Both the position numbers and the translations under genes were made by a program. Positions 40,519-42,673 of a stretch of 64,000 bases of DNA are shown one piece after another. Under the pieces are notes generated by a model. That model searched no databases, was not told where the DNA came from, and was given only the letters and a program-made list of their open reading frames with translations. The DNA comes from an uncultured Brachyspira sp. GTDB lineage: Bacteria > Spirochaetota > Brachyspiria > Brachyspirales > Brachyspiraceae. Every line of letters starts with the position of its first letter. Position 1 is the first letter of the stretch. Location: positions 186,001 to 250,000 of the forward strand of contig NZ_CALXKQ010000002.1 of the NCBI RefSeq assembly GCF_944388875.1, in the 5' to 3' direction.

Positions 40519-42078
40519 TTAATTTTTTGTTGGTATTCCAAAGGGCATTCTTAATTTTACTATTGTACCTGCACCTTCAGAGCTGTCTATGCTGATAGTA
40601 CCCTGCATAGTATCAAGCAAATCTTTTACAACTGATAAGCCTATACCTATGCCGCCATACTCTCTTTCAAATCTCGAATCTCCTTGATAAAATGGTATAA
40701 ATATCTTTTTTAATTGGCTTTGTTTTATTCCCTTTCCAGTATCTTTCACCATTATTTCTATTTCATTTGGTATTATATTCTGCATTGTATGATAGTTAAA
40801 TAAATCTGGGGAGAAATCCAGTGCTTTTTTTTCTATTGTATCAAGAGTTCTTATGTTAATGGATATTGTTCCAGATTTTGTGAATTTGAATGCATTTGAT
40901 ATAATTCCTTCCATGATGAGCCTAAATCTTTCATGGTATCCTATAAGAACTGAACAATTTTTTTCTATATTAATTTCAACATTTATATTTTTGGGATAAA
41001 TAAATTTGTATCCTTCAACTATTATATTTATTTCTTCTTCCGTATTAAATTCTGATATATATTTTGAATTTTCATCATCTTTAAGTGCTATTTGTATTAA
41101 GTTATTATTTGTATCATACAGTTTTTTTACGCTTCTTGAAACTATATTAAAAGCCTCTTCTCTTCTTTCTTCTGTTATATTATTCCTTTTTAATAAATTT
41201 ATATACCCCATAATTTCAGTAAAAGGATGCCTAAGTTCATGCGAAACAGTAGCCTTAAACTCTCTTATAAGTTTATTATAATGTTCAGCACTCTTTTTAA
41301 GCGAGTTAATTTCGTTTAAAAGAGTATGAAGTCTTTTCTGAAGTATTAGATTATGATTTTTTTGATGCTCATATAGTATAGAGAAATAAAGTCTGTTAAG
41401 TCCTATTTCTGTACCAGCATTTTTTATAACCCCATCTTTGCACCATTCTATAGCCTTATTAAAAGGAACAAAAAAAGATTCTATTGTTTCTTCCATAACA
41501 GAGCCGTCAGTTTTTATATCTTTTTTCGGAGTTATTCCTGTTATATCGCATGTTGCAATGTTTATTCTCTCTGTGATAATTCCAGAAGAGCTGTAATACC
41601 TATGTCCTAATACATTTATATTTTTTAACGGCACAGAATATCCAGTTTCTTCTTCAAGTTCTCTCTGAGCACATTTCTTAACGCCCTGATTTGGATTTTT
41701 ATCATTCATTTCATCTTCTTCAAGCATTCCAGCAGGAAACTCTAAGAATCTCATTATATGTTCATCTATATCTTCAGGCTTTTTTTCTGTCATAACTTTT
41801 TCTCTATAGTAAACAACAGGTCTGAATGTGCTAATCATAAGAACATGTATTTGGTTATCTATATATGTATACGGCACTATTATAACAGCATCCCGTCCTT
41901 TTCTGTTGATTATATCGCAATTATATTCTCTTGAAAAAGATCCGTCATCATATTCATTTATAGCTACAAATCTTTCCAAATTAACAAAACCCGTATCCAA
42001 TTTAATAGGTGGAGATTTATGAAAAAATTTTGTATCTTTTACACTTTTTGATTTTTTTTTATTATCATTATTATCCAT
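40519..42078 (-). CDS. NUDIX-histidine kinase fusion protein
   Basis: 519 residues, no membrane segment. Residues ~60-215 form a NUDIX hydrolase fold of the ADP-ribose pyrophosphatase type. Its box starts G117-E123 and ends with R139 to G146 (RELEEETG), so the Gx5E and REUxEExGU halves are intact but 15 residues separate E123 from R139 instead of 7. A coiled coil (~230-275) leads to a histidine-kinase core: H-box ATVSHELRHP (His 280), N-box SNAFKFTKSG, G1 VKDTGKGI and G2 GGIGIGLS. A soluble kinase with a NUDIX input suggests sensing a nucleoside-diphosphate compound such as ADP-ribose; that is inference. No response regulator is adjacent. It lies 11 bases after an RsbW-like gene. Confidence 0.88.
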   Translation of the reverse strand: MDNNDNKKKSKSVKDTKFFHKSPPIKLDTGFVNLERFVAINEYDDGSFSREYNCDIINRKGRDAVIIVPYTYIDNQIHVLMISTFRPVVYYREKVMTEKKPEDIDEHIMRFLEFPAGMLEEDEMNDKNPNQGVKKCAQRELEEETGYSVPLKNINVLGHRYYSSSGIITERINIATCDITGITPKKDIKTDGSVMEETIESFFVPFNKAIEWCKDGVIKNAGTEIGLNRLYFSILYEHQKNHNLILQKRLHTLLNEINSLKKSAEHYNKLIREFKATVSHELRHPFTEIMGYINLLKRNNITEERREEAFNIVSRSVKKLYDTNNNLIQIALKDDENSKYISEFNTEEEINIIVEGYKFIYPKNINVEINIEKNCSVLIGYHERFRLIMEGIISNAFKFTKSGTISINIRTLDTIEKKALDFSPDLFNYHTMQNIIPNEIEIMVKDTGKGIKQSQLKKIFIPFYQGDSRFEREYGGIGIGLSVVKDLLDTMQGTISIDSSEGAGTIVKLRMPFGIPTKN

Positions 42079-42089
42079 ATCAGAAACTC

Positions 42090-42569
42090 TTATTGATTTT
42101 TTAAATATTTTATCAGCGTTACAGAATTGCCTTTTTTATTATATTTAACTTCATCAAAATATGATTTAATCATCATCATTCCTCTTCCGTTTTCTCTGGC
42201 AAATCCTTCATTGCTTATTTTTTTCATTTCCTGTTTAGGTTTAAAACCCAAACCTTGATCTTTAACATTTATAGTTATTAGATTTTCTTCTACATTGAGT
42301 GCAATTTCTACATGCGTTTTTTTTGCTTTATCAGTTTTTAGAAGCTCATTTAATTTTTTATGATATATATTTTTTTTTAACCACTCTTTTTTCATTTCAT
42401 ATAATATATTTAAATTACCATGCTCTATTGCATTCATTATAACTTCATACAATGCAGCAGCAAATAAATCTATTTCATCACTTTTAATATATTTCTTTAC
42501 TTCATAGCATATATTTTCTATAACAGGAGTTATATCTTCTAATTTGTTTTCAAGAATATATTCTTTCAC
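42090..42569 (-). CDS. RsbW-like anti-sigma/serine kinase ATPase (HATPase_c_2)
   Basis: 159 residues when started at GTG 42569 (MKEYILENKLED), with AGG 7 bases upstream. The frame is open to a TTG at 42623, but the promoter boxes overlap that part, so the shorter start is better. GHKL ATPase motifs are ALYEVIMNAIEHGN (N-box), VKDQGLGF (G1) and ENGRGMMMIKSYFDEVKY (G2), the form seen in RsbW/SpoIIAB. Such proteins phosphorylate an anti-sigma antagonist or hold a sigma factor. Neither partner is in the neighbourhood. It is first in an operon with the NUDIX-kinase. Confidence 0.85.
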   Translation of the reverse strand: MKEYILENKLEDITPVIENICYEVKKYIKSDEIDLFAAALYEVIMNAIEHGNLNILYEMKKEWLKKNIYHKKLNELLKTDKAKKTHVEIALNVEENLITINVKDQGLGFKPKQEMKKISNEGFARENGRGMMMIKSYFDEVKYNKKGNSVTLIKYLKNQ

Positions 42570-42594
42570 AATTATACCTAAAAATTTTTCTAAT

Positions 42595-42623
42595 ATTATA
42601 GCACTATAATGATATAATATCAA
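42595..42623 (-). promoter_or_regulatory. Promoter of the RsbW-like/NUDIX-kinase operon
   Basis: Minus strand TTGATA at 42618-42623 and TATAAT at 42595-42600, spacer 17. Transcription would start near 42588, 20 bases before the GTG at 42569, and cannot include the TTG at 42623. Confidence 0.75.
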
Positions 42624-42673
42624 ATTTATAGTTTATGCCTATTTTCTATGATATTATAGATTTTATTATGTAC

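Follow-up and report, generated by a model that had tools for sequence, protein, structure and literature searches.

A NUDIX-histidine kinase fusion kept throughout the order of Brachyspira, usually encoded beside an LvrC-related ATPase: a putative soluble two-component sensor

Introduction

NrtR regulators carry NUDIX-like effector domains, and a NUDIX-type domain thereby serves as sensory input to gene control; their output is a DNA-binding domain, whereas in the Brachyspira fusion described here that place is taken by a histidine kinase. NUDIX enzymes of the ADP-ribose pyrophosphatase/NudK class, to which the GDP-mannose hydrolase NudK of E. coli belongs, stand alone and are dimers, as histidine kinases are. 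In the spirochaete Leptospira, the soluble histidine kinase LvrB phosphorylates LvrC, which the authors of that work read as an anti-sigma factor and of which one crystal structure shows a Rec domain preceding a Bergerat fold (PMC13269768). There is thus a precedent in spirochaetes for a kinase-to-anti-sigma circuit.

Here, we analyze a two-gene locus in a window of 64,000 nucleotides from a Brachyspira genome of 3.11 Mb in 48 contigs, for which Brachyspira catarrhinii was the one close hit bearing a species name. Judging from the sequences, what this locus may add is a histidine kinase with a NUDIX input, conserved across an entire order and combined with an LvrC-type output that is devoid of Rec. 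We found no description of a NUDIX-histidine kinase fusion in the papers searched.

Results and discussion

The fusion protein and its distribution

The two genes are located on the minus strand, flanked by an ABC-transporter permease gene and the rpmH-rnpA-yidC cluster. The first one (positions 42090–42569) starts with a GTG codon and encodes a HATPase_c_2 protein of 159 aa with an LvrC/RsbW-like Bergerat domain. Located 11 nt downstream, the second one (positions 40519–42078) encodes a histidine kinase of 519 aa in which Pfam recognizes a NUDIX domain (aa residues 113–165; 27.6 bits, cut-off 21.1), a HisKA domain (272–333; 34.2 bits, cut-off 26.9), and a HATPase_c domain (383–513; 72.4 bits, cut-off 26.4). 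The preliminary description of this DNA proved accurate regarding the coordinates and reading frame of the kinase gene, the NUDIX residues G117-E123 and R139-G146, and His280. It had also presented the kinase as soluble, and a membrane segment is indeed absent, the best 19-residue stretch having a mean hydrophobicity of 1.26, which is too low. By this measure, the NUDIX-kinase is a soluble protein.

The fusion is present, full-length, in frame, and free of internal stops, in each of the 31 genomes examined from the order to which Brachyspira belongs, representing five genera and two families. These comprise 26 of 26 Brachyspira genomes examined, whose proteins share 70–95% identity with the window's copy; outside the genus, identity ranges from 43 to 58% in the NUDIX domain and from 48 to 69% in the catalytic domain. 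Full-length fusions in 31 genomes rule out a misassembly or a chance reading frame, and NUDIX and kinase domains encoded by separate genes, looked for in the close homologues across the same genomes, were not found. Our searches of all genomes, of Spirochaetota, and of plasmids were samples, and fusions may therefore exist in other phyla. When all genomes were scanned with the NUDIX part, the Brachyspira locus was the only fused one among the 80 loci listed; among 393 Spirochaetota, a match over both domains was restricted to the order's own members; and none of the plasmid records covered 80% of the query.

The ATPase and its likeness to LvrC

The ATPase matches the Pfam family HATPase_c_2 with 58.5 bits (cut-off 27.4), and the catalytic Glu and Asn of its N-box, E42 and N46, are invariant. 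It shares this domain, with the N-box, G1, and G2 boxes, with RsbW and SpoIIAB, after which it had originally been described. The assignment to the GHKL/HATPase_c_2 proteins and the position of the gene hold, whereas the RsbW/SpoIIAB label is too specific: the scores of 33.0 bits for RsbW (equivalog cut-off 145) and 26.8 bits for SpoIIAB (135) lie far below both thresholds, about 30 extra residues separate the N-box from G1, and no STAS or sigma factor gene is local. By sequence, the solved structure closest to it is PDB 9QIH, which was deposited under the name 'SenB' (E 4e-13), and a profile of eight ATPase orthologues matches 9QIH over 156 residues with an E value of 6e-20, versus 5e-5 for SpoIIAB. 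Since 9QIH is one of six structures of PMC13269768, and since its chain of 304 residues with the ATPase part at 140–295 fits a Rec-Bergerat protein, it is evidently Leptospira LvrC.

The Brachyspira pair thus resembles LvrB and LvrC in consisting of a soluble histidine kinase with a signalling coiled coil and a partner of the same Bergerat family, in a spirochaete. The input of LvrB, however, is a Rec domain instead of a NUDIX domain, and LvrC possesses its own N-terminal Rec, whereas the Brachyspira ATPase contains the ATPase domain only, so that phosphate must reach the output by a different route. The Brachyspira ATPase is not a member of the Lvr system but may function similarly. Moreover, since LvrB phosphorylates LvrC, there is a spirochaete precedent for a kinase and an RsbW-type domain in one circuit, contrary to the preliminary view that such proteins usually operate in separate ones.

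The two-gene order, with the ATPase gene upstream of and co-directional with the kinase gene, was found in 28 of the 31 genomes, belonging to three genera, and the pair is kept while its flanking genes vary between species. The ATPase is absent in one genome of 2.0 Mb (G019), and in the second family (two genomes) its gene is not beside that of the kinase, indicating that the kinase can work without it. In this sister family the ATPase domain forms part of larger proteins, at the C-terminus of chains of 750–770 aa (L199:3166-5415; L198:4199-6508). The L199 protein, in which it follows 7TMR-DISM and PAS matches, may be a one-protein receptor; in L200 and L201 it follows a receiver-like region with no Pfam match, and L200 adds a cNMP-binding domain. 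The loss in G019 and the separation in the second family, as well as the several orphan receivers of the window's genome, would suit an ATPase that does not act downstream of the kinase: both genes would share a promoter, but the kinase would feed an orphan receiver and the ATPase would belong to a different partner-switching module. We regard this as unlikely, given that the pair is retained in three genera despite its changing surroundings and that LvrB-LvrC sets a precedent. The ATPase probably belongs to the circuit of the kinase.

The kinase core and the coiled coil

The kinase core is intact, as initially claimed. The HisKA domain (positions 41080–41265, minus strand, with the phospho-acceptor His280 at 41239–41241) and the HATPase_c catalytic domain (40540–40932, minus strand), with intact N, G1, and G2 boxes, contain nine residues identical in the 31 sequences, i.e., His280, N395, D446, G448, G450, F463, G476, G478, and G480. 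The H-box motif reads HEL[RKN]HP in place of the usual HELRTP. In many HisKA kinases, a Thr or Asn at the altered position is required for phosphatase activity, and the 31 sequences all have His there, which suggests that the NUDIX-kinase may act mainly as a kinase.

A long helix followed by a heptad coiled coil (aa residues 221–278; positions 41245–41418, minus strand) joins the NUDIX domain to the kinase. The last NUDIX helix was modelled as a single long helix, spanning residues 221 to 264, that leaves the NUDIX fold toward the kinase. The a/d positions from L246 to V278 are hydrophobic in 87–100% of the 31 sequences, the stretch shows no gaps, and the heptad run ends at V278, two residues ahead of His280. 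Such a pattern is the build expected of a signalling coiled coil, in agreement with the proposal of a true fusion joined in this way.

The NUDIX domain

The NUDIX domain (aa residues 13–240; positions 41359–42042, minus strand) was modelled with AlphaFold from an alignment in which the window's copy was joined by nine further fusions and, from other organisms, 44 ADPRase-like homologues, with a pLDDT of 93.8 and a pTM of 0.85; the model of the full-length protein had a pLDDT of 55, too low for use. The closest fold matches were E. coli NudK (Z 19.2 over 188 residues, rmsd 2.4), a nucleoside diphosphate sugar hydrolase of Bdellovibrio in its ADP-ribose-bound form (Z 19.0), and, with Z about 18.4, ADP-ribose pyrophosphatases, scores so near that they are tied and define the class without distinguishing the substrate. 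According to the model, the NUDIX part is clearly of the ADP-ribose pyrophosphatase/NudK class (ADP-ribose/NDP-sugar), which falls within the nucleoside-diphosphate compounds that had been anticipated.

The catalytic residues of the NUDIX box (G, R-E-x-x-E-E-x-G; aa residues 117–147, positions 41638–41730, minus strand) are invariant in the 31 sequences, where R86, E113, G117, R139, E140, E143, E144, G146, E170, and E197 are identical; E123 is replaced by Asp in two outer orthologues. With NudK and the ADP-ribose pyrophosphatases the domain shares the fold (Z about 18–19), the box residues, E170, and the E196-E197 region. It differs from these enzymes in its fusion to a kinase and in two family-specific insertions, one of 8 residues between E123 and R139, giving E-x15-REL instead of the E-x7-REL of the strict 23-residue GX5EX7REUXEEXGU box, and another of about 18 residues ahead of E113, as revealed by the alignment. 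Of the complete NUDIX initially reported, the catalytic residues and the modelled fold are therefore maintained but the box spacing is non-canonical, and we file the domain as a NUDIX fold rather than as a confirmed ADP-ribose pyrophosphatase.

The NUDIX domain is very probably the input of the kinase. The invariant carboxylates E140, E143, E144, E170, and E197 and a fold typical of active hydrolases are also compatible with a domain that works chiefly as an enzyme removing ADP-ribose or some other NDP compound, whose turnover, and not mere binding, would set the kinase so that it reports metabolic flux; this appears improbable, since two family-specific inserts lie near the active site and clearance needs no fused kinase. 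More doubtful is a pure binding domain that has lost hydrolysis, as in NrtR with its NUDIX-like effector, and possibly recognizes an unrelated ligand, a reading to which both insertions and the Asp substitution of E123 would point but against which the metal-binding and catalytic carboxylates are otherwise all kept.

A proposed signalling scheme

We propose, with a probability of roughly 0.45 for the scheme as a whole, that the ADP-ribose pyrophosphatase/NudK-class NUDIX domain acts as the input of a soluble two-component sensor with transcriptional output through the LvrC-type ATPase. An NDP-linked metabolite, most likely ADP-ribose or an NDP-sugar, would be bound and perhaps hydrolysed by the NUDIX domain, shifting its C-terminal helix; this movement would be transmitted through the heptad coiled coil to the DHp helices and set the autophosphorylation of His280, in one direction or the other. 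The phosphoryl group would then pass to a receiver domain encoded elsewhere, and the operon partner, a Bergerat protein of LvrC type, would keep a sigma factor bound or set it free. That the ligand is NDP-linked seems somewhat likely, and a connection through a receiver in trans has a similar chance.

No receiver domain lies beside the gene pair, and the response partners had already been reported as not local. In the window's genome, 14 receiver domains and five STAS matches score above cut-off, and one of its three SpoIIE phosphatases carries a fused receiver. The gene of this Rec-SpoIIE phosphatase, located after rodA- and PBP2-like genes (L146:6332-7480; G000:C8:50331-51479), is present in 31 of 31 genomes, even in G019, where the ATPase is missing. 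Gene loss, considered as a pointer to a Rec-SpoIIE link, is consequently uninformative, and universal co-occurrence does not single this protein out. The Rec-SpoIIE phosphatase is a candidate and may be the missing link to the output by acting on a STAS protein, in which case the complete chain would run from the kinase to Rec-SpoIIE, STAS, the ATPase, and sigma.

The scheme is supported by the fusion in every genome with invariant catalytic residues in both the NUDIX and kinase parts, by the fold matches to NudK, the ADP-ribose-bound Bdellovibrio hydrolase, and ADP-ribose pyrophosphatases, and by a helix that exits the NUDIX fold and continues as heptads up to V278 in a protein without a membrane segment. 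Further support comes from an ATPase gene that stays co-directional despite changing flanks, from its nearest solved relative being evidently LvrC, the target of a histidine kinase, and from the order-wide Rec-SpoIIE gene together with STAS proteins. Conversely, it is weakened by the lack of a receiver beside the pair, the ATPase missing in G019 and from the kinase locus in both second-family genomes, the 8-residue insertion in the NUDIX box, the Asp in place of E123 in two outer orthologues, and the universality of Rec-SpoIIE.

A bolder and rather doubtful version is that, order-wide, the NUDIX domain both binds and destroys ADP-ribose or a related NDP metabolite and uses histidine phosphorylation to signal to an ATPase of anti-sigma type; by destroying its own ligand, it would make the signal time itself. 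With the NUDIX-kinase in every genome, and usually an LvrC-related ATPase as well, the order may read a nucleotide-linked metabolite and signal to transcription. If the proposed scheme is true, a two-component sensor would directly read the cell's NAD or nucleotide-sugar state, and the LvrC-type anti-sigma output would be more widespread among spirochaetes and not a peculiarity of Leptospira. Being soluble and conserved order-wide, the proteins lend themselves directly to ligand screening and phosphotransfer profiling.

Promoter region and neighbouring genes

The promoter previously noted ahead of the ATPase gene is present as TTTGATA-N17-TATAAT (positions 42595–42624, minus strand), with the -35 sequence TTGATA at 42623–42618 and the -10 sequence TATAAT at 42600–42595. 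The 30-bp pattern has a single genomic site with 3 mismatches allowed, and no regulon sharing the motif was found in this genome scan. Most Brachyspira have a related TTGATA-16/17-TATAAT form ahead of the ATPase gene, and in many of them the -10 box is only about 6 nt ahead of the ATG, which suggests a possibly leaderless message. Within this upstream region (42570–42624 in the window), the spacer and -10 box form a near-palindrome in many Brachyspira, ATTATATCATT-T-AATGATATAAT, which is perfect in L014 and could be an operator.

In 11 Brachyspira genomes, a second and shorter gene for an RsbW-like ATPase is found immediately downstream of the NUDIX-kinase gene, in convergent orientation (L143:10721-11158); the window's genome carries it on a different contig (G000:C9:39924-40151). 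In eight Brachyspira genomes and one of another genus, genes for an ECF sigma factor, a zf-HC2 protein, and a small exported protein with a weak Metal_resist match are convergent to the NUDIX-kinase gene (L145:9578-11055; L144:6825-8298; L191:9150-10649).
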